This document shows, one piece after another, positions 17,244-63,475 of a DNA stretch of 64,000 nt; positions within the stretch are counted from its first letter, which is position 1; every line of letters starts with the position of its first letter. Under the pieces are notes generated by a model. The model was given only the letters and a program-made list of their open reading frames with translations. It was not told the origin of the DNA and did not search any database. The translations under genes were made by a program, and so were the position numbers. Origin of the DNA: a virus. The stretch is from positions 1-64,000 of IMG/VR virus record IMGVR_UViG_3300024264_000021, one strand, 5' to 3'.

Positions 17244-17681
17244 TTATTTTCTTATGCGCCTGTATCTACACCAATCAATGTTTTCTTCATAAGGTAATGC
17301 GTAATTGTTTTGAATCATATATTCCGCAATTGATTTACCATCAACATAAACATCAGCAACTACTCTAAAGTATTTTCCTCTTTCCACATTTTTAATTTCA
17401 ATTGTTGTCGCTTTGTTCATTAGAAAGTTAATGAATTCCTTTGCCTTTTTTGCTAGAACCTTTTCATTTTCACATTTGCCACGTATTTCTGGTGTATCAA
17501 TACCACGTATTCTTATTGAAAGACCTTTACCAAAAACATCTGGCACATCTGGTATATCAAACTTACAAGTGTCACCATCATAGCAACTTTTGAATATAGG
17601 AAATTCTAAATCTTCTGCATATGAAATATTAGTAATTATTAATAAACAAAATACTAAAAATAAACTCAAAAGATGTTTCAT
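17244..17681 (-). CDS. Secreted thermonuclease-like (SNase family) nuclease
   Basis: The first 22 residues are a clear Sec signal peptide (MKHLLSLFLVFCLLIITNIS, cut after an A-x-A-like SYA). The mature part matches the staphylococcal nuclease fold: DGDT near residue 36, RIRGIDTPEIRGKC near 57-70, a Lys-rich helix, and ERGKYFRVVADVYVDGKS near residues 100-117, holding the Arg and Asp residues expected in the active site. Of the usual SNase set, the GIDTPE block is intact. It probably acts in the periplasm or outside the cell. The start overlaps the end of the upstream 89-residue gene by 4 bases. Confidence 0.85.
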   Translation of the reverse strand: MKHLLSLFLVFCLLIITNISYAEDLEFPIFKSCYDGDTCKFDIPDVPDVFGKGLSIRIRGIDTPEIRGKCENEKVLAKKAKEFINFLMNKATTIEIKNVERGKYFRVVADVYVDGKSIAEYMIQNNYALPYEENIDWCRYRRIRK

Positions 17682-17987: not shown

Positions 17988-19376
17988 TCACTTTCGCTTT
18001 GATTTTTCTTTATCAAACTCTTTTATACTATTTAAAATTTTATAAACTTTCTTATAGTATCTATCTTTTTCTTTTTCAGGATCTGTAGCTACATCCAGAG
18101 CATATAACAACTCACCAAGAACTCTTCTGAAAGTCATAATTTTATCCTCATATCCTTCACCACCAAAGTAACGAATTTCAATACGTTCTGAACCTGCTCT
18201 GCGAATAGTTCTATTACTGAATTTGTAGTGAGAGTAATTGATATTGGTATACTTATCAAAAAGCTGTAATGTGCTTACTAATACTGCTATACCTGTTTTC
18301 ATATTGTTCTTTTTTACTTTTTCATCTAACCATTTTCCTAAAGATTCTGGTGACAAATTTACTGTTTTTGCAGTACGAAAATAATTATCTTTTATTTCTT
18401 TTAAAGTACCATCTATAAATTCAGCATCTTTTCTATCTCCAAATAATTTTTTATTATTCACTTGAGATTCATGAGAGAAGACTAAAAATTTTAATGCATC
18501 AAACTTTTTCATTCTTTCTGGTGTAAATGATATGTTGATGTGTAATCCACATTGCACATCCCTTACATTGTAATCTGGGTCTGATTCTTCAAATTCATCT
18601 GCAGATGCCATTGATTTTGTATTACCAACATTTCTAATGTAGTTGAACATTTTATCAGTTACTTCTAATGCCTCTTGCGGTCTCATCACAGGACTTACCA
18701 TCTCTATACCACCGAGTGCTGGTGAAATTGATTGGTCAATTACAATTGCCCATCTATTTGCTTTTGCAGTAGCACCATGCTTACTAGATATCAATGGATT
18801 CTTGATGAATGGTGGTAAATTTCTTTCTTGCTTATAGAATTTTCTTACGTCTGCAAATGGAACATTCTCATCTGTTTGTGCGTTCAGCAAATCCATAAAT
18901 TTTTCCAACTTTCTTAGTTGTCTTTTCACTCTGTCAAATACATCTTGTTTATAATTTTGAGGATAATACAACTCTTTAAATCTAGAGCCTGCTTGAGCTA
19001 CAATGTAGTAGATGTAGTCCGCAACAGTTTTCTCATTTAATCCTTGTCTTTTGAAATATCCTAATAATATCTTACGTTCTCTTGTCTGAAAATCATTTAA
19101 AATATCATCATCTGTTATGATTTTATTTCTTTTGTTCTTTTCAACATTACGATTATTATTCAATATGTTTCTATTTTTTTTCTTTGCACCAGTGAGTAAA
19201 TCAGAAAGTGTACCAAGTAGTAATGTTTCTTCTGCGCTCGGACGATTGCTATCTTCTAAGAATCTTTCATTGTAAAATTCAAATTCAAGACCAACTTTGA
19301 AATCATTGTTGCTGAAGACTTGATCTATTTGATTTTTTTTAATACCTTCAGTTAAAAAACTTTTAAATGGTAGCAT
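17988..19376 (-). CDS. Amidoligase-like enzyme with N-terminal capsid-targeting leader
   Basis: This 462-residue protein matches the amidoligase (glutamine-synthetase-like/COOH-NH2 ligase) pattern: VGLEFEF at residues 28-34, IEMVSP at 224-229, CGLHINIS at 276-283 and RIEIRYFGG near 398. Such enzymes use ATP to join a carboxyl to an amine. The substrate is unknown and is thought in other systems to be a peptide or protein side chain. The N-terminus MLPFKSFLTEG resembles the T4 capsid-targeting sequence, with the cleavage consensus (L/I)-x-E at LTE. It may therefore be packaged in the head and ejected. An inserted Lys/Asn-rich helical region (residues 60-180) is unusual. It lies 1 base after the 134-residue gene. 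Confidence 0.7.
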   Translation of the reverse strand: MLPFKSFLTEGIKKNQIDQVFSNNDFKVGLEFEFYNERFLEDSNRPSAEETLLLGTLSDLLTGAKKKNRNILNNNRNVEKNKRNKIITDDDILNDFQTRERKILLGYFKRQGLNEKTVADYIYYIVAQAGSRFKELYYPQNYKQDVFDRVKRQLRKLEKFMDLLNAQTDENVPFADVRKFYKQERNLPPFIKNPLISSKHGATAKANRWAIVIDQSISPALGGIEMVSPVMRPQEALEVTDKMFNYIRNVGNTKSMASADEFEESDPDYNVRDVQCGLHINISFTPERMKKFDALKFLVFSHESQVNNKKLFGDRKDAEFIDGTLKEIKDNYFRTAKTVNLSPESLGKWLDEKVKKNNMKTGIAVLVSTLQLFDKYTNINYSHYKFSNRTIRRAGSERIEIRYFGGEGYEDKIMTFRRVLGELLYALDVATDPEKEKDRYYKKVYKILNSIKEFDKEKSKRK

Positions 19377-19377
19377 T

Positions 19378-19782
19378 TTAATTTAAAAATAATAATGGTG
19401 TTTCTGATTTAGTTTTACGTTCTTTTGCATATTGTTCTACTGCTTTTTCACCTAAAAGTAATTTAGTTATTTTTCCTTCTGAATTTTTCATTTCAACAAA
19501 TGCAGAAATTATATCTACTTTTTTTTCTAAAAATTCTTTAGTAAATAAACTTGCTGAAAATGGATCACATTCAAAAAGATTAAAAAACAATCCTAATGTA
19601 TTTGTATTATAAACTTCAAGCATTAATGGAGCATGGTTATAAAGCATTATTCTTGCTATAACTTCATCATTATGTATATTAAAATCTTCATGTTCAAATA
19701 ATTTGTCTATGCCTGCTACTGTATACTTTCTAGATTTGCAAAAATCTAAAACATCATTTACTATGTCTTCATATTCTTGCAT
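19378..19782 (-). CDS. Hypothetical protein upstream of amidoligase-like gene
   Basis: This 134-residue acidic, mostly helical protein has no family I recognise. It contains a hydrophobic stretch APLMLEVYNTNTLGLFF near residues 51-67 that looks like a buried strand rather than a membrane span. Its stop lies directly before the ATG of the amidoligase-like gene, so the two probably share a transcript. Confidence 0.65.
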   Translation of the reverse strand: MQEYEDIVNDVLDFCKSRKYTVAGIDKLFEHEDFNIHNDEVIARIMLYNHAPLMLEVYNTNTLGLFFNLFECDPFSASLFTKEFLEKKVDIISAFVEMKNSEGKITKLLLGEKAVEQYAKERKTKSETPLLFLN

Positions 19783-19798
19783 TTACTTTCTCGTTTTG

Positions 19799-19818
19799 GG
19801 GGAATATTAAAATTCCCC
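19799..19818. other. Hairpin between phoH and the following gene
   Basis: A perfect 7-bp stem GGGGAAT / ATTCCCC with a 6-base AT loop lies between the phoH stop and the next start codon. There is no T-tract after it on the minus strand, so it could be a processing or mRNA-stability hairpin rather than a simple terminator. Confidence 0.5.
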
Positions 19819-19835
19819 TACCTTGTGTATTTAGA

Positions 19836-20630
19836 TTAATTTACGGGGGTTGCTTCTATAGAATATCGCTGACCAGCAACTACAATATTATTAAAAGGTT
19901 CTCTTTGTACTTTGTGACCATTGTATAATATCCTTTCTTTTTTCTCTTTATCATATTGATTTTTAGCTATAATATAATCTCTAATAAAATCATTTCGGAC
20001 AATATCTTTTTCTTGAAACGCCACGATTTTAAAACCTTTTGTTTTTTTAGCTATTTCAAAAAAATCTTTAATCCCACTTTCTTCCATATCTAAATCCATT
20101 TGTCCAAAATCTCCTGCCAAAATTAAAGCCGAATCCTTTCCTATGCGAGTGACTACGTTATGAATTTCGTTATAAGCTAAATTTTGAATTTCATCAACAA
20201 AGATAATTGTATTATCTATAGTTGTTCCTCTTAAAAAAGAAGTAGAACAGAACTCCACTACTCCCTTCTTTTCAAGAATTTCCCAAGCGTCATCTCTTTT
20301 AAAAAGTTCTTGCACAATAGATTGATATGGTCTTTTATAAACAGAAATTTTTTCTTCTTCAGTTCCTGGTAAAAAACCAATGTCTCTAGAAGGCACACAA
20401 GACCTACATATGAGAACTTTTTTGTATGGAGAATGTGGGTCAAACACTGCTTCTAACCCAAGAAAAATAGATAAAAAAGATTTACCTGTACCCGCCGTTC
20501 CCATTGAAATTACATGATGACCATCATAAAAAGAATTGAATAATAAATTTTGAGCATTAGTCATCGGCTCAATTTCTCTTAATTGCAATCCGCGGTTTTG
20601 GTTAGAAGTTTGTGTCTTTTTTCTTGACAT
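19836..20630 (-). CDS. phoH: PhoH-like ATPase
   Basis: This 264-residue P-loop NTPase matches the PhoH family common in marine T4-like phages. Walker A is GTAGTGKS near residue 41, followed by the PhoH-specific stretch CRSCVPSRDIGFLPGTEEEK near 77-96. Walker B is TIIFVDEIQN near 140, and GDFGQMDL is near 176. PhoH proteins are ATPases related to SF1 helicases. Their role in phages is unsettled, and a link to phosphate stress is often assumed but not shown here. A GGAG site precedes the ATG. An N-terminal Lys/Gln-rich tail precedes the core. Confidence 0.93.
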   Translation of the reverse strand: MSRKKTQTSNQNRGLQLREIEPMTNAQNLLFNSFYDGHHVISMGTAGTGKSFLSIFLGLEAVFDPHSPYKKVLICRSCVPSRDIGFLPGTEEEKISVYKRPYQSIVQELFKRDDAWEILEKKGVVEFCSTSFLRGTTIDNTIIFVDEIQNLAYNEIHNVVTRIGKDSALILAGDFGQMDLDMEESGIKDFFEIAKKTKGFKIVAFQEKDIVRNDFIRDYIIAKNQYDKEKKERILYNGHKVQREPFNNIVVAGQRYSIEATPVN

Positions 20631-20660
20631 AAGTAACTCCGTATTGTTTTAACAAGAATT

Positions 20661-20705
20661 ACTCAGGTTTGCTATCACTCACTCAGAATATAAAACCCGA
20701 GTGAG
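20661..20705 (-). promoter_or_regulatory. Possible alternative hairpins in the phoH leader
   Basis: Two mutually exclusive pairings are visible in the 110-base gap upstream of phoH. ACTCAGGTTT (20661-20670) can pair with AAACCCGAGT (20693-20702, one mismatch), and CTCACTC (20678-20684) can pair with GAGTGAG (20699-20705). This could act as a leader switch or simply as a terminator-like structure for the upstream zinc-ribbon gene. Confidence 0.35.
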
Positions 20706-20740
20706 CTATTTAATATCTCTCTATTAGAAACCTCCTTTAA

Positions 20741-20992
20741 TTAATCCACATTAATTGTATTTCCAGGAATGTTTCTTTTCATTTCTCTTAACTTATCCCG
20801 AAAGCCTTCATCTGGTTTTTTACCAGTTAAAGAAAAATTATCGTAACCGATAGTTGGTGATGAAACTTTTAATTTAAGAGAACAGTTATTTTTTGAACAT
20901 TCTTCATTAATAGGTTCATGTCTTTTTGAAATTGACATAAAAATTTCAAAATCATTTTCGCAGGTATCACAGTGATAATCATAGCTTGGCAT
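20741..20992 (-). CDS. FmdB-like zinc-ribbon protein
   Basis: I start the gene at the ATG at 20992 because a GGAG site lies 7 bases upstream and the product then begins MPSYDYHCDTC, the classic FmdB-type start. The 83-residue protein has a CxxC pair followed by a second Cys pair (ECSKNNC), forming one zinc ribbon, then a basic tail. FmdB-like proteins are small putative regulators found in many phages, and the function here is unknown. Confidence 0.8.
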   Translation of the reverse strand: MPSYDYHCDTCENDFEIFMSISKRHEPINEECSKNNCSLKLKVSSPTIGYDNFSLTGKKPDEGFRDKLREMKRNIPGNTINVD

Positions 20993-21013
20993 AAGATACT
21001 CCATTTTAAATTT

Positions 21014-21021
21014 TATAAATA
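21014..21021 (+). promoter_or_regulatory. T4-type late promoter for the head-cargo gene pair
   Basis: An exact TATAAATA on the plus strand lies 46 bases upstream of the ATG at 21067. It is the only obvious promoter for the two rightward genes inserted among leftward genes, and it fits expression late in infection when heads are built. Confidence 0.7.
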
Positions 21022-21066
21022 TAACATAACCAATACATTTATTTATCAAAAAATCTTTTTAGTATT

Positions 21067-22959
21067 ATGAAATCATTTACAACTATTTTAACAGAAGCTA
21101 GAAGAAATCCAGAATTGAATGTAAAACAATTTCCTGTTGAGGCATTGTTAAAATATGAGAAGGACCTAGATATTTTTATTTCATTCATATCTAATGCAAA
21201 AGAATTTACAGAAACAGGTAAAAGCGGTGAACTATCAGCACAAGTAGGATTGAACACCAAATCAAAATTCAACACTCCGAATGGTGTATACACATATCCT
21301 CTAGAAGAAGTTTATTTAATGTATAGTGGTGGTAAAGAATATAAAAGATTTAATGTTCCTTTTGTAAAAGAAAAACCTAAAATAGCTATTCTTAAAAGAA
21401 AGGGTAATAAAAATATTAATGATGTTGGTAGAGATTATAAGCAAGCTATGCTAGAAAAGGATGTGAGAAAAATAATTGAGTATGCCTCTAAAAAATTGAT
21501 GGATGTATTGAATATTAAAAATGAAAAGCTAATGTATTATATGATGTTGTCTGTTATTGAGCATTCAATGAAAGGTGCAAAGGCTGAAAATCGTGGTGCT
21601 GAATTTTGGAACATAACTAGAACAGTTTCTGGATTAATTGCACAAGCAAGGAAAGTAAAACAACTTACAGCAACTTCAAAAGAATATGACAAGGATAACA
21701 CATACAATATGGTTTATACTTTAAAGGATGCTGAAGGTCCAACTAGCTTTAATGCAGAAGTAGACTTAACAGAAAAAGATAAAATAAAAGATTTTTTACC
21801 AGATAAAGTTGAATCAGTTCCAGCAGAAATGAAAACTGACCCGTATAAATTTATTAAAAAAGAATCTAGAGATTTTAAATTTGATTTGGTAATAATGAAA
21901 GACCCATCACCAAATGAAAAGAAAGGTGCAAAACCAGCGGCTAACGCATGGGCTAATTTGTTGATTAATATTGGATATGATTCTATTAGTGATAGAAGTG
22001 GTTATGGAATTATTCATGAGGCAGAGCCTGTACAAGCAGTATTTTTATCCAGAGCAGGTTATAAAGTATTGGATATCATTGATAATAAAACATATGAGGA
22101 TAAAACACCACATGCAATTGAATATAAGAAACTAGATTCTAAAGAAAAAAAGATTAACTATATTTTAAAAGATATTATTAGGAACAAATACGATCCAATG
22201 AAAGAAACTAGGCCTTTGTATGCAAAAGGAAATGTAGCAATGCATACAAGAATGACTACTTTCTATAAAGCATGTAAGGATTACAATGTTAAATTAGACA
22301 AAGATGTTCTAGAAGTAGTAATCAAGAAGGAACCAGATGCTGCCGTTGGAATGCATCATTATACTGATGATGCTAAATTTCTAAACTATTTTTATAAGTG
22401 GGCATTCATAAAAGAGCCGATGCATGTGCGTGTATTAATGGAACTTGAAAACTCTAAACTAGATGTTGATTCATTTATATTTGCATTAAAGGAAGCTAAA
22501 GAAAAGAATACAAGTGTCCGTGACTTAGGTAGATGGGTAAATAGATGGTATGAACTTAAAAAAGAAGTTCCATTGAAACTACAATTAGCTGCAGTTGATA
22601 TTTGGCCTGGTATGGCAAAATATTTTGGAGATTCTAAAGAATTGGAAGTATTTGAAAAGATATTGAAGAGTGATGAGCCGAGTGGAATCAAAGGATTCTT
22701 TATGCATAATTCTACTAAATCAATAACCGATTTTAGTAAAGAACCTAAATTTGAAACAAAAGTTATAGATATAATAGTGAATGATTATTTCAAAGATTTA
22801 GGTCCTGGATTCTTTAAAGACTTGGAAAAAGAAACAGAAGAAGTACGAAAGAATAAACTAGATGAACAATTAAACTACATAGCATTTACTGTTTTCAGAA
22901 GAAAACTTACCCCGAAAGGTGCAATACATTTAAATAACCGTGTATACAATTTTACATGA
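21067..22959 (+). CDS. Large putative head-packaged protein with capsid-targeting leader
   Basis: This 630-residue protein opens with MKSFTTILTEARRN, matching the T4 capsid-targeting pattern with the (L/I)-x-E cleavage motif at LTE. The body has two blocks I associate with uncharacterised large phage proteins: FNTPNGVYTYPL near residues 75-86, and a WANLLINIGYDSISDRSGYG segment followed by IIHEAEPVQAVFL near residues 297-329. The rest is Lys-rich and helical. T4 packages the ADP-ribosyltransferase Alt in the same way, so an effector role is a reasonable guess, but I see no clear catalytic signature. It overlaps the HAD gene by 4 bases and is driven by a late promoter. Confidence 0.6.
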   Translation: MKSFTTILTEARRNPELNVKQFPVEALLKYEKDLDIFISFISNAKEFTETGKSGELSAQVGLNTKSKFNTPNGVYTYPLEEVYLMYSGGKEYKRFNVPFVKEKPKIAILKRKGNKNINDVGRDYKQAMLEKDVRKIIEYASKKLMDVLNIKNEKLMYYMMLSVIEHSMKGAKAENRGAEFWNITRTVSGLIAQARKVKQLTATSKEYDKDNTYNMVYTLKDAEGPTSFNAEVDLTEKDKIKDFLPDKVESVPAEMKTDPYKFIKKESRDFKFDLVIMKDPSPNEKKGAKPAANAWANLLINIGYDSISDRSGYGIIHEAEPVQAVFLSRAGYKVLDIIDNKTYEDKTPHAIEYKKLDSKEKKINYILKDIIRNKYDPMKETRPLYAKGNVAMHTRMTTFYKACKDYNVKLDKDVLEVVIKKEPDAAVGMHHYTDDAKFLNYFYKWAFIKEPMHVRVLMELENSKLDVDSFIFALKEAKEKNTSVRDLGRWVNRWYELKKEVPLKLQLAAVDIWPGMAKYFGDSKELEVFEKILKSDEPSGIKGFFMHNSTKSITDFSKEPKFETKVIDIIVNDYFKDLGPGFFKDLEKETEEVRKNKLDEQLNYIAFTVFRRKLTPKGAIHLNNRVYNFT

Positions 22960-23696
22960 AAAACTTTAAACAATTCTTTTTAAATTTGCAAGAGGCACTC
23001 ACTAAAATTTTAGTTGTCTTTGATATTGACGATACGTTGGTTCACACATCAACAAAAGTTAGAGTAATGAAAGATGGGAAAAAAATAAGGGAACTGAACA
23101 GTCATGAGTTCACCAACTATAAACTCAAGGACGGTGAAGAATTTGATTTTGAGAACTTTCGCAATGCAAAAGAATTTTTTGATAATGCAAAACCGATCAT
23201 TCCTATGATGAAACAATTGAAGAGAGATATCAATCGTGGGAATAAAGTTGTAATGGTTACTGCCAGAGCGGACTTTGATGATAAAGAATTATTTTTAGAT
23301 ACCTTTCGTAAGTACGGAATTGATATGAAAAAAGTTCATGTATACCGTGCCGGTAACATGAAGGGTGGAACTATTGAGGAAAACAAGAAAAAAATCATTC
23401 TTTCTCTGATGAACAAGGATACTTACGATAAGGTCATTATGTACGATGATTCAAAAGCAAATCTAAATTCTTTTGTTTCTTTGAAAAAAGATTATCCTAA
23501 TGCTAAGTTTTATGGTTGGTATGTAAACCCTACTGGCGAAGCATCTGAAGCTCTGAGAGAACAATTTTATGACATTGCTGAAAAATGGACTAAGAAATAC
23601 AAAAAGTCCATTGACTGTAATAACCCCAAGGGGTTTAGCCAACGTGCACATTGCCAAGGAAAGAAAAAATTAAAATCAGCAAGAAAAATTAGGTGA
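22956..23696 (+). CDS. HAD-superfamily phosphatase with capsid-targeting leader
   Basis: Residues 1-14 form a leader (MKNFKQFFLNLQEA) with the (L/I)-x-E motif at LQE. The HAD core follows: motif I VFDIDDTLVHT at residues 21-31, motif II VMVTAR near 98, a Lys before motif III, and motif III YDDSKAN near 152. These residues predict a magnesium-dependent phosphohydrolase of unknown substrate. The C-terminus holds DCNNPKGFSQRAHCQGKKK, a Cys-x13-Cys motif I have seen at the ends of other marine phage proteins, possibly a small metal site or DNA-binding tail. It is translationally coupled to the 630-residue gene. Confidence 0.8.
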   Translation: MKNFKQFFLNLQEALTKILVVFDIDDTLVHTSTKVRVMKDGKKIRELNSHEFTNYKLKDGEEFDFENFRNAKEFFDNAKPIIPMMKQLKRDINRGNKVVMVTARADFDDKELFLDTFRKYGIDMKKVHVYRAGNMKGGTIEENKKKIILSLMNKDTYDKVIMYDDSKANLNSFVSLKKDYPNAKFYGWYVNPTGEASEALREQFYDIAEKWTKKYKKSIDCNNPKGFSQRAHCQGKKKLKSARKIR

Positions 23697-49582: not shown

Positions 49583-50650
49583 TTAGGCAAAGACAGTATT
49601 ATATTGATTACTTACTTTAACAAATGTTGTGCATTTTGTCAAGTGTTTTAATTGACTTGCTCCAACATAGGTACAAGCACTACGTAATCCGCCAAGAATT
49701 TCTTGAATGGTTTCAGATACTTCACCACGATAAGGAATTAAAACTTCTCTACCTTCAGAAGCTCGGTAATCTTTCAATCCACCAAAATGTTTTTCATTAG
49801 CTTTCTTGGAACTCATGCCATAGAACTCTATATATTTTTCATCATTTTTTTCTATAATAGTTCCGCCTCCCTCATCGTGACCGGCTAACATTCCACCTAA
49901 CATAACAAAGTCTGCACCACCTGCAAATGCTTTAACTACATCACCAGGACATGTACATCCTCCATCAGCAATAATCAATCCACCTAATCCATGTGCCGCA
50001 TCAGCACATTCCATTACAGCAGATAGTTGTGGATATCCTACTCCAGTTTGTATGCGAGTAGTACAAGCAGAACCAGGACCAATACCCACTTTAACAATAT
50101 CAACACCACTAAGAATCAATTGTTCTGCCATTTCACCAGTAACAACATTTCCAGCAATGATGAACAAAGGATTGTGTCTTCGGAATGTATCATCTGCTTT
50201 TTCATCATATATTCCTCTAAAATCAACTTCACGTATTTTTTTAACAAAATCTACAAATCTTTCACTATATCCGTTAGCCACATCAATACAAACAAATTTT
50301 AAATTTTGACATATACTATAAACATCACAGAACTTACGAAAATCATGATCTGTAATTCCAATACTCATTGCTGTGTGTTGACAATTTATTTTATTAGAAA
50401 AAAATTCAATAAGTTGTGAAGTGTCGTATGTTTTTTTAAGACATGTAAGCATTTTCATTTCACTAAGTTTTTTTGCCATTTCAATTGTACCAACACCATC
50501 CATATTAGCCGCTATAATGGGAACACCAGTCCATTTAATACTAGCATAATTTCTTTCTAAAGAAACTTCATTGCGAGAAGATAGTGTTGACCTTTTAGGC
50601 CGAATAAGAACATCACTATAATCATACTTTACATCATTTTCAATTCGCAT
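49583..50650 (-). CDS. guaC: GMP reductase (GuaC)
   Basis: This 355-residue protein matches GuaC rather than IMP dehydrogenase: no CBS domains, [13 protein letters not shown] near residue 190 with the catalytic Cys, [48 protein letters not shown] and [14 protein letters not shown]. coli GuaC has 347 residues with the same blocks. It reduces GMP to IMP using NADPH and releases ammonia. A 10-residue insert ([13 protein letters not shown] region) precedes the [11 protein letters not shown] strand. Together with the purine operon it can send guanine nucleotides to IMP and on to AMP. Confidence 0.93.
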
Positions 50651-58767: not shown

Positions 58768-58932
58768 ATGAAGTCATTTAAACTATTTTTAGACCAAATC
58801 ACAGAAGCCGCCAAGAAAAAGAAACCAGATTTTCTTGATATAGATAAAGATGGTGATAAAGAAGAATCTATGGAGAAAGCTGCAGATGACAAAGAAGAAG
58901 ATAAAAAAGATGATGATAAAAAAGATAAATGA
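58768..58932 (+). CDS. Small acidic/basic head protein with capsid-targeting leader (54 aa)
   Basis: ATG at 58768, stop overlapping the next start (ATGA). The product starts MKSFKLFLDQITEAAKKKK, with (L/I)-x-E at ITE, and continues FLDIDKDGDKEESMEKA, an EF-hand-like Asp-rich loop, then a Lys/Asp-rich tail. It resembles prohead core peptides such as T4 gp67 in composition. Confidence 0.65.
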   Translation: MKSFKLFLDQITEAAKKKKPDFLDIDKDGDKEESMEKAADDKEEDKKDDDKKDK

Positions 58933-59141
58933 AACGATACAGTGAATTCTGGGAAGTTATCCTAGAGAAATCCTTATCTAAAAGTCAACAAAGACTAATG
59001 GGTATGGTATACGCCTATAAAAAAGGCCGAATGAAAGATGCTTCTGATGAAGTAAAAAAGATAGCTAAAGGTATGTCTATGAAAGATGCAAAGAAATTTG
59101 CATCTACTAAACATAAAGATTTGCCAGAGTATAAAAAATAA
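58929..59141 (+). CDS. DUF3008-like small protein with head-targeting-like leader (70 aa)
   Basis: Residues 1-13 (MKRYSEFWEVILE) match the leader pattern with I-L-E before the body. The body SKSQQRLMGMVYAYKKGRM, then MSMKDAKKFASTKHKDLPE, is a DUF3008-like family seen in marine T4-like phages and their hosts, of unknown role. It overlaps the previous gene. Confidence 0.75.
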   Translation: MKRYSEFWEVILEKSLSKSQQRLMGMVYAYKKGRMKDASDEVKKIAKGMSMKDAKKFASTKHKDLPEYKK

Positions 59142-59260: not shown

Positions 59261-59275
59261 TTGAAAGGAAATGAC

Positions 59276-59809
59276 ATGTTAAATCCGATTGTTAGTGTTG
59301 TTATGGGAAGTAAAAGTGATTGGGATATCATGAAACCCGCATGTGACACACTCCAAGAATATAATATTCCCCACGAAAAAAAAATTCTATCCGCACATAG
59401 AACACCTTTGAAAATGGCTACATATGCTAAAAATGCTATTCAAAATGGATTTAAAGTAATTATTGCCGGTGCTGGTGGAGCAGCACATTTACCAGGAATG
59501 TTTGCTGCATTAACTACAATTCCTGTAATCGGTGTTCCAGTAAGAACCTCTACTGCTGAAGGATTGGATAGTTTATTATCTATTGTGCAAATGCCAAGAG
59601 GTGTGCCTGTCGCAACAGTAGCGATTAACAATTCTAAAAATGCGGCTCTTTTATCTCTTCAAATATTAGCACTAAACAATACTACACTTCATCAAAAATT
59701 AATTTCCGAAAGAGTAAAGCAAGAAAAAGATATAGACATTATTAATTCTGAATTTAATACTTATTATGAAGATGGAAATGTTACTGTAGTTGATAATAAT
59801 ATATTTTAA
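59276..59809 (+). CDS. purE: N5-CAIR mutase PurE
   Basis: The start is set at ATG 59276, with AAAGGA seven bases upstream. The 177-residue protein has the class I PurE motifs [23 protein letters not shown] near residue 41 (active-site His), [13 protein letters not shown] near 65, GVPVRTS and [16 protein letters not shown]. It converts N5-CAIR to CAIR in purine synthesis. The class I enzyme normally needs PurK, which is not in the window, so that function would come from the host or from genes further right. It is the first gene of the operon. Confidence 0.95.
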
Positions 59810-59829
59810 TATACATATGAGATTGTAAT

Positions 59830-61197
59830 GTGAGAGTAAAAATTGTAGGAAATGGTGGCAGAGAATCTGCAATAAAATGGAAATTAACAAAACATTGTCA
59901 TGAAATTGTAAATGATTTGCAAGAATTAACTGTCGTAGGTCCTGAAGGACCTATTGCAGATGGTATTGCCGATAGACATGGTTTCATAAGAATAGTTGCG
60001 CCTAGTATGCTTGCGGCTAGATTAGAATCTAGTAAATTGTGGGCCAAACAGTTTATGCAACGATGGGATATACCCACTGCAAGATGGATGACGTATACTA
60101 GAAATCCTGATGGTATGAATCAAGCGTTGCTTGACCTTGATATCATGCGTAATAATCGTTCCCACAAAATTATAAGTATTAAACCACTAGATTTAGAAAA
60201 TCCATATTATCCAGTAGTAATAAAAGAAGATGGACTTTGTGGAGGAAAGGGAGTAGTAATTGCAAGAACTCAAGAAGAAGCTTGGAGGAATATTCCACCT
60301 ATCTTTATTAATAATATTTTTAAATCTTCTTCTAATAAAGTATTATTTGAAGACTATGTATTTGGTTTTGAAGCAAGTTGTTTTGTCATGTCAGACGGAG
60401 ATAGCTATAAAATATTACCATTTTGTAAAGATTATAAAAGAATAAATGATGGTGATGAAGGACCAAATACAGGCGGAATGGGTGCTATTGCTCCACATCC
60501 ACTTGTCACTGATAAAATGAAAAAAAGAATAGAAGATACTATTATAAAACCTACATTAAATGGAATGCGTTTAGAAGGTTGTAGATATAAAGGAATATTA
60601 TATATAGGATTAATGATAAATGAAAATGGTCCTTTTGTCTTAGAATATAATGTTAGATTTGGAGACCCTGAATGTCAAGTACTAATGATGCTTATGAAAG
60701 ATGACTTAGCTCCGTATTTAAAGGCAATTTCTGAAGGAACATTAGATAATTTACCCGACCCAAAATTTCATGAAGGATATGCTATTACAGTTTCTTTATG
60801 TTCACAAGGATATCCTCAAAAATATGAACATGGTTATTGCATTGAAGGTTTAGATAAAATTGATAATAGTGTTCAAGTATTTCACGCGGGAACCGTATTT
60901 GATGAACAATCTCAAAAATACAAAACAAATGGTGGAAGAGTATTAAATGTAACAACATTTGAAAAAACACTTGACAAAGCTAGAGAAAACGTGTATAATG
61001 CAGTGAATAAAATCAATTTTGATAATATGATCTACAGAAAGGACATAGGCAAAAATGAAAAAAGTGGCAATTCAAACAAAGCTTCGGAGTGGAATCAAAG
61101 ACGTAGAAGGGGAAACAATACTGAACTCCGTAGGAAAAGATTTAAAAATCACTCACATTTCCGTAGGGGAGATTTATTATCTAGAAATAGAGAATGA
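59830..61197 (+). CDS. purD: GAR synthetase PurD with shortened N-domain and odd C-terminal extension
   Basis: The start is GTG at 59830 (MRVKIVGNGGRES). ATP-grasp motifs are intact: VVIKEDGLCGGKGVVIA near residue 117, FEDYVFGFEASCFVM near 175, DGDEGPNTGGMGAIAPHP near 207, and VLEYNVRFGDPE near 276. It joins glycine to phosphoribosylamine. Compared with E. coli PurD about 38 residues of the N-terminal domain are missing (the part that normally carries the APGNAG segment). The normal end KDIG is at about residue 407, but the frame runs 48 more residues, very basic, through most of purS in another frame. Confidence 0.9.
   Translation: MRVKIVGNGGRESAIKWKLTKHCHEIVNDLQELTVVGPEGPIADGIADRHGFIRIVAPSMLAARLESSKLWAKQFMQRWDIPTARWMTYTRNPDGMNQALLDLDIMRNNRSHKIISIKPLDLENPYYPVVIKEDGLCGGKGVVIARTQEEAWRNIPPIFINNIFKSSSNKVLFEDYVFGFEASCFVMSDGDSYKILPFCKDYKRINDGDEGPNTGGMGAIAPHPLVTDKMKKRIEDTIIKPTLNGMRLEGCRYKGILYIGLMINENGPFVLEYNVRFGDPECQVLMMLMKDDLAPYLKAISEGTLDNLPDPKFHEGYAITVSLCSQGYPQKYEHGYCIEGLDKIDNSVQVFHAGTVFDEQSQKYKTNGGRVLNVTTFEKTLDKARENVYNAVNKINFDNMIYRKDIGKNEKSGNSNKASEWNQRRRRGNNTELRRKRFKNHSHFRRGDLLSRNRE
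60971..60999 (+). promoter_or_regulatory. Perfect sigma70 consensus promoter inside purD, upstream of purS
   Basis: TTGACA (60971-60976), exactly 17 bases, and TATAAT (60994-60999) are read on the plus strand within the purD C-terminal coding region. The expected start near 61006 gives a leader of about 50 bases for purS. It would let purS-purL-purQ-purM be expressed without purE-purD. Confidence 0.85.
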
Positions 61198-61276
61198 TGC
61201 TGACGTTGATGATATTGCTAAAAAACTTTTTGTAAACGAATTACTCTATGATTATGAAGTAAAATATGTTGACTAA
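61055..61276 (+). CDS. purS: FGAM synthase subunit PurS
   Basis: This 73-residue protein has the PurS pattern: TKLRSGIKDVEGETILNSVG at residues 8-27, VGEIYYLEIE near 37-46, and a C-terminal NELLYDYEVKYV. PurS bridges PurL and PurQ in the three-part FGAM synthase and helps pass ammonia. It overlaps purD by 143 bases and purL by 11. Confidence 0.92.
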   Translation: MKKVAIQTKLRSGIKDVEGETILNSVGKDLKITHISVGEIYYLEIENDADVDDIAKKLFVNELLYDYEVKYVD

Positions 61277-62858
61277 AGATGAACTAATTGAAATTGAAAA
61301 AAGATTAAATAGAAAACCGAATCATACAGAAGAATCCGTTTTTGATGCAATGTGGAGTGAACATTGCAGTTATAAAACAAGCAAGCCTCATTTACGTAGA
61401 TTATACACAGATAACAAATATGTTTTTTCAAGTCCTGGTGAAAACGCTGGAGTAATTAGTATTGGTGGCACTGATAAAGTCGCATTTAAAATGGAGTCAC
61501 ATAATCACCCAAGTTATATTGAACCATTTCAAGGTGCAGCAACCGGAGTTGGTGGTATTCTACGTGATATCTTTACAATGGGATTTAGACCTATTGCACT
61601 TACCAATAATTTATTTTTCGGAGACCCTGCATTTTCTGATGATAGTAAACGTGTTATGGATGGAGTGATTGCAGGATTAACACACTATGGAAATTGTGTA
61701 GGTGTACCCACTGTCAGTAGTAAAATAAAGTTTAATGAAAGATATGAAAAAAATCCACTAGTAAATGCAATGGCAATTGGTCATACTAGAGAACGTATTA
61801 TAAAAAGTGTAGCCAAAAATCCGGGAAGATTATTATATGTCGGTGCTAAGACAGGAAGAGATGGTATTGGCGGAGCAGTAATGGCAAGTGATAGTTTCAC
61901 AGATGGTGTAGATTTACGCCCTACTGTACAAGTGGGAGATCCATATCTAGAAAAGTTGTTAATAGAAGCCTGTCTTGAACTAGCAAAAACAGAACATGTG
62001 ATTGCCGCACAAGATATGGGAGCAGCAGGACTTACCAGTTCTTCTACTGAAATAGGTATAAAAGGAGGCTCTGCATTATTTAAAGGAACATGTGGTATAG
62101 AATTAAATCTAGATAAAGTTCCGTTAAGAGAAACAGGTATGGAAGCTTGGGAGATTTTACTCAGTGAATCTCAGGAAAGAATGTTGTTTGTTTTGCACGA
62201 TCGGGGAATAGAAGAAGCTAAAGCTATTTTTGATAAATGGGATTTGGATTGTGTAGAAATTGGTCATACAACAGAAGATGGAAATTTTACAGTGTATAAG
62301 GATGGTAATGTTTGTTGTAATTTTCCGCTTAGTGCTTTAGAATATCCAGAAATGGAAAGACCCTGGAAACCAATATTTGAAAGAGAAGAAGCACAGGAGA
62401 ATTATTTTTATAGTTCAGAATTAATTCATTCTCAATATGATAGTGAAGTTCAAGGTAATACAATAAAGGGTATTAGAGATGATGTAGCTATTGTCAGAAT
62501 ACCTAGAAAAGATGCCAGAGGTAAAGATAAACAAATTGCAATTTATACTGATAGCTTTCCATATCAGAGTTATATTAATCCAGACCAAGGAGCAGAGAAT
62601 TGTATAGTTTCAGTTTATGATAAATTAGTTTCTATTGGTGCTAAACCTATAGCATTAACAAATTGTTTGAATTTCGGCAATCCTGAGAACCCTGAGATTA
62701 TGTTTGAGTTTAAAGAAACTATAGATGCAATGGCTAGAATCTGTGAGAAACTGGACTTTCCTGTTGTCAGCGGCAATGTGAGTTTCTATAATGAAACATC
62801 AGGACAAAATATATTACCTACTCCAGTATTTGGAGCAATTGGTTTAATGGAGGATTAA
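61266..62858 (+). CDS. purL: FGAM synthase PurL, C-terminally shortened
   Basis: This 530-residue small-type PurL has the motifs MWSEHCSYKTSK near residue 30 (catalytic His), ESHNHPSYIEPFQGAATGVGG near 77-97, AAQDMGAAGLTSSSTE near 243, and the second-half SGNVSFYNET near 505. It ends at FGAIGLMED, just after the conserved P-T-P-V motif, so the last domain of usual PurL is missing (B. subtilis about 740, Thermotoga about 600 residues). The catalytic first half looks intact. It converts FGAR and ammonia from PurQ to FGAM. Confidence 0.93.
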   Translation: MLTKDELIEIEKRLNRKPNHTEESVFDAMWSEHCSYKTSKPHLRRLYTDNKYVFSSPGENAGVISIGGTDKVAFKMESHNHPSYIEPFQGAATGVGGILRDIFTMGFRPIALTNNLFFGDPAFSDDSKRVMDGVIAGLTHYGNCVGVPTVSSKIKFNERYEKNPLVNAMAIGHTRERIIKSVAKNPGRLLYVGAKTGRDGIGGAVMASDSFTDGVDLRPTVQVGDPYLEKLLIEACLELAKTEHVIAAQDMGAAGLTSSSTEIGIKGGSALFKGTCGIELNLDKVPLRETGMEAWEILLSESQERMLFVLHDRGIEEAKAIFDKWDLDCVEIGHTTEDGNFTVYKDGNVCCNFPLSALEYPEMERPWKPIFEREEAQENYFYSSELIHSQYDSEVQGNTIKGIRDDVAIVRIPRKDARGKDKQIAIYTDSFPYQSYINPDQGAENCIVSVYDKLVSIGAKPIALTNCLNFGNPENPEIMFEFKETIDAMARICEKLDFPVVSGNVSFYNETSGQNILPTPVFGAIGLMED

Positions 62859-63475
62859 TGTATAAGGTTGGAGTTGTTATATTTCCTGGTTCCAATTGTG
62901 AGCAAGAAACTATTAGATTTTTAAAGACTTATAAGGAATTCCAAGTATCTACAATTTGGCACAAAGAAAGTTCTGTTCCAAAATTAGATATGTATGTTTT
63001 ACCAGGTGGATTTAGTTATGGAGATTATTTACGTGCCGGTATTCTTGCAAGTTTAAGTCCAGCAATGAATGATATTGAAAAATATGCCAATGATGGTAGA
63101 AAAGTTTTAGGAATATGTAATGGATTTCAGATTCTATGTGAGAGAAAGATATTAACCGGCACACTGAGAAAAAATAATACTTTAAAATTCATATGCAAAG
63201 AAGTTGAATTATATGATAATCATCTAAAAAACATTACTGTACCAATTGCACATGGAGACGGACAGTTTTATTGTAATAAAAATGATCATTTTAATTTTGA
63301 AGTAGCTTGGCGCTACAAACCACTCAATCCAAACGGAAGTCTACATGCTATAGCTGGCATATACAACAATAAAGGTAATGTTCTTGGATTAATGCCTCAT
63401 CCAGAACGTGCTTTTGAAAGTCATCACAAAAGTAAAGATGGTTATATAATAATAGATAAATTCTTATTAAGGTAA
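62858..63475 (+). CDS. purQ: FGAM synthase glutaminase subunit PurQ
   Basis: This 205-residue class I glutamine amidotransferase (usual length about 227) has PGSNCEQET near residue 10, LPGGFSYGDYLRAGI near 46-60, the nucleophile Cys in LGICNGFQILCE near 85-96, and the late LMPHPERAFE. It takes ammonia from glutamine for PurL. Its ATG shares a base with the purL stop. Confidence 0.95.
   Translation: MYKVGVVIFPGSNCEQETIRFLKTYKEFQVSTIWHKESSVPKLDMYVLPGGFSYGDYLRAGILASLSPAMNDIEKYANDGRKVLGICNGFQILCERKILTGTLRKNNTLKFICKEVELYDNHLKNITVPIAHGDGQFYCNKNDHFNFEVAWRYKPLNPNGSLHAIAGIYNNKGNVLGLMPHPERAFESHHKSKDGYIIIDKFLLR

Follow-up and report, generated by a model that had tools for sequence, protein, structure and literature searches.

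Do unrelated proteins of a marine T4-like phage share an address that takes them into the virus head? The question is raised by a stretch of 64,000 bases (the window) out of the 74,297-base virus record IMGVR_UViG_3300024264_000021 (G000), itself a fragment. Three genes between positions 17988 and 23696 encode an amidoligase-like protein, a 630-residue protein and a HAD-type phosphatase-like protein, each beginning with a short leader that ends in (L/I)-x-E. Internal proteins of phage T4 begin MKTYQEFIAE/A, the slash marking the point at which protease gp21 cuts them. T4-type core genes in the window include UvsW, gp47-like, gp55-like, UvsY-like and gp45-like genes, together with genes for the baseplate, for a clamp loader and for a tail-tube-like protein. 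Judged by UvsW, the 15 best-listed cultured kin, out of 3,090 matching records, belong to the cyanomyoviruses or are the pelagiphage Mosig; identity is 41-45%. We consider it probable that the leader genes encode T4-type head pro-proteins that are packaged, cut and delivered with the DNA.

Leaders in the window and in relatives

The three genes and their leaders are as follows.

17988-19376, minus strand: Amidoligase_2-like protein, 462 residues; leader MLPFKSFLTE/GIKK, coded at 19347-19376
21067-22959, plus strand: 630-residue protein of no family; leader MKSFTTILTE/ARRN, coded at 21067-21096
22956-23696, plus strand: HAD-type phosphatase-like putative pro-protein, 246 residues; leader MKNFKQFFLNLQE/ALTK, HAD core, cut-like site IAE-209, 37-residue basic Cys/His module
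22956-22994, plus strand: coding region of the HAD protein's 13-residue leader, MKNFKQFFLNLQE

These N-termini, first pointed out in a sequence-only reading of the window, are found exactly so in the translations; the start codons of all leader genes are read from sequence. The same reading had grouped the three, under 17988-23696, as a candidate set of injected effectors. A single gene island was rejected: a 134-residue open reading frame (ORF), a gene that by eye is PhoH-like and another that is zinc-ribbon-like, all lacking such leaders, lie between the leader genes. The start of the HAD gene overlaps the end of the 630-residue gene by 4 bases.

In T4, the first ten residues suffice for capsid targeting; residues 4 and 7 target the protein, 8 and 10 direct its processing, and propeptides are about 10-19 residues long (PMC9026906). 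The amidoligase-like and 630-residue leaders have F4, F or I at position 7, L8 and E10, at the T4 targeting and processing positions. The HAD leader has F4 and F7 and, being three residues longer, fits the ten-residue rule more loosely. In sequence, the leaders agree with the pattern of T4-type internal proteins, in which (L/I)-x-E closes a propeptide of about 10-19 residues.

Could such N-termini be chance products, or ordinary amphipathic helices on proteins that act in the cytoplasm during infection? The shortness of the motif and its degenerate variants would favor this. In the window, 2 of 101 N-termini carry the strict form (M[KRNL].[FY]..[FIL][LIVF].E[AGSKNT]), as against 1 of 21,673 internal positions, a comparison that is not blind because the motif was suggested by the N-termini of the first reading; chance origin was rejected on these counts. 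With a variable-length form, the N-terminal count rises to 6 of 101 where 0.2 are expected, one of the six (MKLFGKELKLFFVEK, at L008) resembling a chance match, and a motif widened later is present in 2 of 103 ORFs and at 4 of 20,256 internal positions. The independent evidence for the leaders is that from relatives and virions, not the window motif test.

Relatives of the three proteins are few among 50,697 phage records (1, 0 and 18 records), and 17 of the 18 that are related to the HAD protein match through its tail module only. The 630-residue family has the leader in all eight aligned members: the window, L016 (63% identity; MKTFRTFLTE/A), L108 (41%; MKSFSQFLTE/A), L109 (40%; MKSFRSFITE/A) and four further loci. 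The window, L016, L108 and L109 were gathered without selection on the leader; the search pattern that probably led to L129, L130 and L132, [FI][LI]TEAR[RK]N, spans the leader boundary itself. M1, K2, F4, T9, E10, A11, R12, N14 and P15 are invariant in the eight-member alignment. In the amidoligase-like family, the four lineages begin MLPFKSFLTE/G (window), MKVLLE/G (L012), MKAFHEFLLE/G and MLGFNSYFVE/D, with E10 the only invariant leader residue besides M1. The L012 leader is six residues long and lacks F4, a length matched by the six-residue leader of T4 Alt (ITE-6). It retains the L-x-E/G boundary, and identity between the window and L012 proteins restarts at this boundary despite the shortened leader.

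These sequences and their conservation are direct observations, and they bear on two explanations. Leaders kept among proteins that are 34-63% identical argue, together with the N-terminal counts, against chance or a mere helix, which we regard as very improbable. Alternatively, the leaders may be vestigial, left over from a fusion with what were once internal proteins and since fallen into disuse. Degenerate or absent leaders in some homologues (L020, S-N03, S-H34) would fit such decay. We find this hardly credible, given that E10 is invariant in both families, that F4 is invariant in the 630-residue family and that only hydrophobic residues occur at position 8, whereas positions 3, 5 and 6 are variable (the L012 leader being the one without F4).

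Leader-like starts can also be clustered. In L132, a run of seven adjacent ORFs has five (MLSFSSYCKEMILE, MKTYKEFRQVTE at an inner start, MKTYKDFVLE, MKSFSRFLTE and MKSFSQFLTE), and three consecutive ORFs have them in L129. At L132:1369-3798, a leader-like start heads a protein in which Pfam recognizes Gene product 88 (PF17338, E 9.6e-30).

Leader-bearing enzymes reported in cyanophage virions

The same leader is present on non-structural enzymes that have been reported, by mass spectrometry, in the virions of the cyanomyoviruses S-CREM2, S-SCSM1, S-SZBM1 and S-SM1. These enzymes differ in kind from the window cargo, and the passages of the papers drawn on here make no mention of a leader. Among the 52 virion proteins in Table 3 of the S-CREM2 study (PMC10665884) are a S-adenosylmethionine (SAM) hydrolase (MKDFDSFLEE; Pfam S-AdoMet_lyase), an APH/ChoK-like kinase (MKRFDAFLTE), a cytidylyltransferase (MKNFSSFLTE) and two hypothetical proteins (MKDLHSFLTE, MQTFSMFFSE). 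The S-CRM01 kinase, a virion protein according to the same study, begins MISFDQFLSE. The cytidylyltransferase T4-GC190 of S-SM1, reported in virions (PMC3037559), begins MKKFSAFLNE and is the sole ORF of 232 in that phage to match the widened motif. The virion cytidylyltransferase of S-SZBM1 begins MRFRQFIIE, and the NMNAT of S-SCSM1, a virion protein, MKSFLQFLKE. Between positions 70,001 and 110,000 of S-SCSM1, eight genes are marked as virion protein; one of the seven inspected, the NMNAT, has a strict leader.

In S-CREM2, a motif built on T4 only was found in 3 of 50 detected proteins and in none of 214 other ORFs (p=0.0065), where our ORF caller had recovered 50 of the 52 detected proteins and the 214 are mechanical ORFs, not annotated genes. 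For S-SZBM1, we entered every protein of Table 1 except one that crosses a stretch joint (29 of 30), and 25 of them were recovered; the T4-only motif matched none of these 25 and 2 of 250 other ORFs. All five S-CREM2 ORFs with the widened motif belong to the virion proteome, a further point against chance or helix leaders, with the motif having been widened after these data were seen.

Two annotations touch on these proteins. S-CREM2 ORF12 (L115:7704-10313, minus strand), a virion protein called Cas9 by its authors, carries leader-like PLRFASFMAE/A behind a 15-residue extension; 'Cas9' as a settled packaged cargo was rejected, with no Pfam match at E <= 0.01. In four related phages, neighboring genes have a common SRW..W start and a site such as GFSSFLKE/AE. 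S-SM1 SSM1_191 (L103:1421-2842), annotated as a cytidyltransferase and filed as such by PHROGs, has no Pfam cytidylyltransferase match; by eye it reads as Lys/Ala-rich and histone-like, with several (L/I)xE sites.

The sequence-only reading had proposed a search for more leaders, and two further leader genes, which it had missed, were found in the window, adjacent to each other and among the extra matches of the variable-length motif.

58768-58932, plus strand: 54-residue ORF; leader MKSFKLFLDQITE/A, then a charged EF-hand-like module, KPDFLDIDKDGDKEES
58929-59141, plus strand: 70-residue ORF; leader MKRYSEFWEVILE/K, then DUF3008

The DUF3008 match (PF11450) has E 1.3e-6, above the cut-off. 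Both ORFs resemble S-SCSM1 proteins whose record label is 'virion protein': the first is 49% identical to ORF92 over 35 columns and the second 63% identical to ORF93 over 56 residues. Next to them, 59261-63475 reads by eye as a gene run for de novo purine synthesis, as does L008, and an IMPDH-family gene lies at 49583-50650.

The leaders are best explained, from their sequences, as T4-type capsid-targeting sequences. Targeting with removal of the leader, as the sequence-only reading had it, is well supported by the published T4 rule, by conservation and by the leader-bearing virion enzymes of cyanophages. These lines of analysis make it likely that the leader proteins are packaged into the head.

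Putative cargo and the second cut-like site

What would such leaders carry? The amidoligase-like protein matches Pfam Amidoligase_2 (PF12224) with E 7.9e-4 and 19.8 bits; we call it amidoligase-like, and not a certified member, because the score is under the gathering cut-off of 22. Three of four family members match this model at E <= 1 (best E 1.7e-4). Close to this gene, at 17244-17681 on the minus strand, lies a Staphylococcal-nuclease-family gene (PF00565, E 2.4e-10) whose product has a signal-peptide-like N-terminus by eye; a look-alike stands near the amidoligase-like gene of L109.

The HAD protein has the catalytic motifs VVFDIDDTLV, MVTARAD and MYDDSKANL (by eye) and scores 28.0 bits against DUF2608, above the cut-off of 22.6; the remaining HAD models score under theirs. 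Among the PHROGs families, it matches phrog_415, polynucleotide kinase, best (E 1.6e-11). Motifs and family score are those of a HAD-type phosphatase, and the activity is predicted from them.

The 630-residue protein of the window has no Pfam match at E <= 1. PDB sequence searches with its domain profile, the HAD protein and the amidoligase-like profile gave nothing better than E 0.1. An AlphaFold2 model of the full protein was unusable (pLDDT, the predicted local confidence, 46); that of its N-terminal domain reached 67. The best Foldseek match of the domain model in the PDB had only E 0.21, and two nameless matches in a viral library had E 1.6e-5 and 9.6e-4 with TM-scores <=0.33. A second look at structure matches gave 9k3a_B, from the pre-ejectosome of cyanophage A4 (Z 6.8, root-mean-square deviation 4.5, 168 aligned), and 7plq_A, a PARP domain (Z 4.1, deviation 4.7, 115 aligned); L024, a relative bearing ART-PolyVal, did not clarify the position of 9k3a_B when used as a query. 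From these models, an ADP-ribosyltransferase-like fold is no more than a weak lead.

The HAD protein contains a second cut-like site, IAE-209, ahead of its last 37 residues; the sequence-only reading had missed both this site and the tail module behind it.

23583-23693, plus strand: coding region of the 37-residue basic Cys/His module, which follows the cut-like IAE/KWTKKYKKSIDC... and has net charge +13

This tail module recurs in many unrelated phage proteins, and its boundary is a direct observation. We gathered 33 contexts with six search patterns and dropped one with fewer than four upstream residues. P1 is E in all 32 distinct contexts, a figure that is partly an artefact because one of the patterns, EKWTKKYK, favors E, and one of the residues L, I, V, M and F occupies P3 in 31, a preference that the pattern does not impose. 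Across the 31 distinct upstream sequences, P3 is one of these residues in 30, whereas hydrophobic residues make up only 3, 23 and 13% at P2, P4 and P5, respectively. With similar contexts removed, 24 of 25 have a hydrophobic P3. For a second module, DACYxKVK, 13 of 14 contexts show [LIVMF]xE at most four residues away, and the second half of this module, VWPSAYASGALVKCRKKG, forms the C-terminus of S-CREM2 ORF160, which is in the virion proteome. In S-SM2, cyanophage proteins made of such modules sit between the terminase genes.

The slot behind the 630-residue gene differs from relative to relative. In L012 the HAD part is absent and the ORF there, MKTYKDFCIYLSE/KWTEKYKKSIDC... (47 residues), joins a leader to the tail; L108 and L131 have a longer leader-like start and the tail module; L109 has a different protein after MITNFKTFLLE/S. 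As read from these sequences, the slot swaps its cargo between relatives.

Probable delivery with the DNA, or a part in assembly

Based on these observations, we suggest the following route. The first 10-13 residues would bind the prohead core through targeting residues 4 and 7, and the head-maturation protease would cut behind (L/I)-x-E. The mature protein would remain in the DNA-filled head and then enter the cell along with the DNA. The HAD gene would encode a two-cut precursor giving a leader, a HAD phosphatase and the 37-residue basic Cys/His peptide, a common phage protein module that is probably DNA-binding or head-filling. A HAD enzyme akin to the phosphatase part of polynucleotide kinase would fit a role in mending RNA or DNA ends that host defence has damaged as the phage enters. 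Packaging, cutting, injection and enzyme activities are what we infer for this phage, and the label 'injected effectors' in the sequence-only reading exceeds the data in its injection and its functions.

The kind of system is already known. T4 IPI, IPII and IPIII have, like the window proteins, a removable head-targeting leader of about ten residues with determinants at positions 4, 7, 8 and 10, followed by unrelated mature parts. They differ in that T4 Ip1-3 inhibit type IV restriction enzymes, whereas the putative window cargo includes two enzyme-like proteins (246 and 462 residues) and the 630-residue protein. T4 Alt resembles the HAD protein as a head enzyme with a leader cut at ITE-6 and a second, near-C-terminal cut at LTE-619, but the three window proteins match no Alt family in Pfam or PHROGs. 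The ejection proteins of giant phages such as SPN3US likewise lose propeptides to a prohead protease; they differ in that several of the propeptides exceed 100 residues and the site is A-x-E. Polyvalent proteins (Iyer et al. 2017, PMC5512222) are multi-module and predicted to be packaged in the head, and are proposed to have built-in metallopeptidases; here, the modules are set off by head-protease-like sites. Polyvalent proteins have at least two effector domains per polypeptide, against at most one recognized enzyme domain in each window protein. L021 and L026 likewise join several domains with the tail module. The large protein at L021:5605-7989, in which the module is internal, has cytidylyltransferase-like, deaminase and weak peptidase-like matches; that at L026:283-4224, also with an internal module, has zeta-toxin/AAA and weak cytidylyltransferase-like matches. 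Further literature drawn on is PMC9503650, PMC9602691, PMC12373910, PMC5694885 and PMC9146016. We found no report of such leaders in marine phages in the titles and abstract beginnings that searches of the open-access literature listed. Within the literature found, what is new is the cargo, the two-cut precursor of leader, enzyme and module, and the link of the leader to cyanophage virion enzymes.

The plus-strand pair had also been said to follow a T4 late promoter.

21014-21021, plus strand: T4-late-promoter-like TATAAATA, 53 bases ahead of the ATG at 21067 of the 630-residue gene

The octamer, which resembles the T4 late promoter, is in place at -53; it is not enriched in the record, which has 7 such sites and 10 of the octamer reversed as a control. 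The 630-residue genes of L016 (-53), L108 and L131 (both -46) have it too, the latter two counting as one case because their upstream sequences are identical. The exact octamer is absent before the 630-residue genes of L109, L129, L130 and L132, and before the amidoligase-like and 58768 genes of the window. In S-CREM2 it stands 28-30 bases before three virion-protein genes: ORF154, ORF15 (first of the kinase cluster) and ORF6.

A number of observations weigh against packaging and delivery, beginning with the bias toward E at P1 of the tail boundary given above and the phylogenetic non-independence of the tail contexts. The exact octamer is missing before S-CREM2 ORF136, the S-SM1 cytidylyltransferase and the S-SCSM1 NMNAT. 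When S-CREM2 and S-SZBM1 are pooled, the T4-only motif is found in just 3 of 75 detected proteins and 2 of 464 other ORFs (p=0.02), and the strict window motif in 1 of 75 and 1 of 464 (p=0.26, not significant). The widened motif gives 5 of 75 and 1 of 464 (p=2.5e-4), with the widening made after the S-CREM2 data were seen. SSZBM1_191, the only strict-leader ORF of S-SZBM1, is missing from its detected proteins, and the widened motif is present in none of 67 ORFs in the first 50 kb (1-50 kb) of Syn9. The kinase homologues of S-N03, MA01 and S-H34 have degenerate leaders, and the HAD homologue of L020 begins MRAREFVRVQPQ, with no L-x-E leader. The S-CREM2 authors allow that abundant proteins may contaminate the virions (PMC10665884), and the S-SCSM1 virion study likewise leaves contamination open. 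Finally, a gp21-like protease, for which the sequence-only reading had proposed a search, has no match on the 74-kb record, an incomplete genome, or on twelve related fragments including G007 (146 kb); the model works, because it matches the three complete cyanophages S-SM1, S-CREM2 and S-SZBM1. For gp23, G000-G006 gave no match in a search that covered these records and whose control matched nowhere.

The leaders might also target the prohead while the proteins serve assembly, by filling the core or condensing DNA, and deliver no effector. In T4, gp21 likewise cuts core proteins (gp22, gp67 and gp68) into fragments, and the tail module and the ORFs at 58768 and 58929 are small and charged, like head-filling peptides. 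On the other hand, unrelated enzyme-like domains without an obvious role in assembly stand behind the leader, and the slot behind the 630-residue gene swaps its cargo among relatives. Leader-bearing virion enzymes such as the SAM lyase would, moreover, suit a newly entered cell. We hold a purely assembly-related role to be unlikely and favor packaging followed by delivery with the DNA.

Marine T4-like phages may use a general export code that can be read from sequence, in which leaders and protease-site 'punctuation' yield several products per gene, such as an enzyme and the basic Cys/His peptide, and cargo is freely exchanged between a constant leader and tail; we see the odds of so broad a code as evenly balanced. 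The presence of the leader on some of the virion enzymes that the S-CREM2 and S-SCSM1 authors were unable to class as cargo or contamination makes the cargo reading testable and predictive. If the export code is real, the injected proteins of uncultured marine phages could be listed from sequence alone, which would offer a cheap route to the proteins that these phages deliver at entry, where host defence is met.

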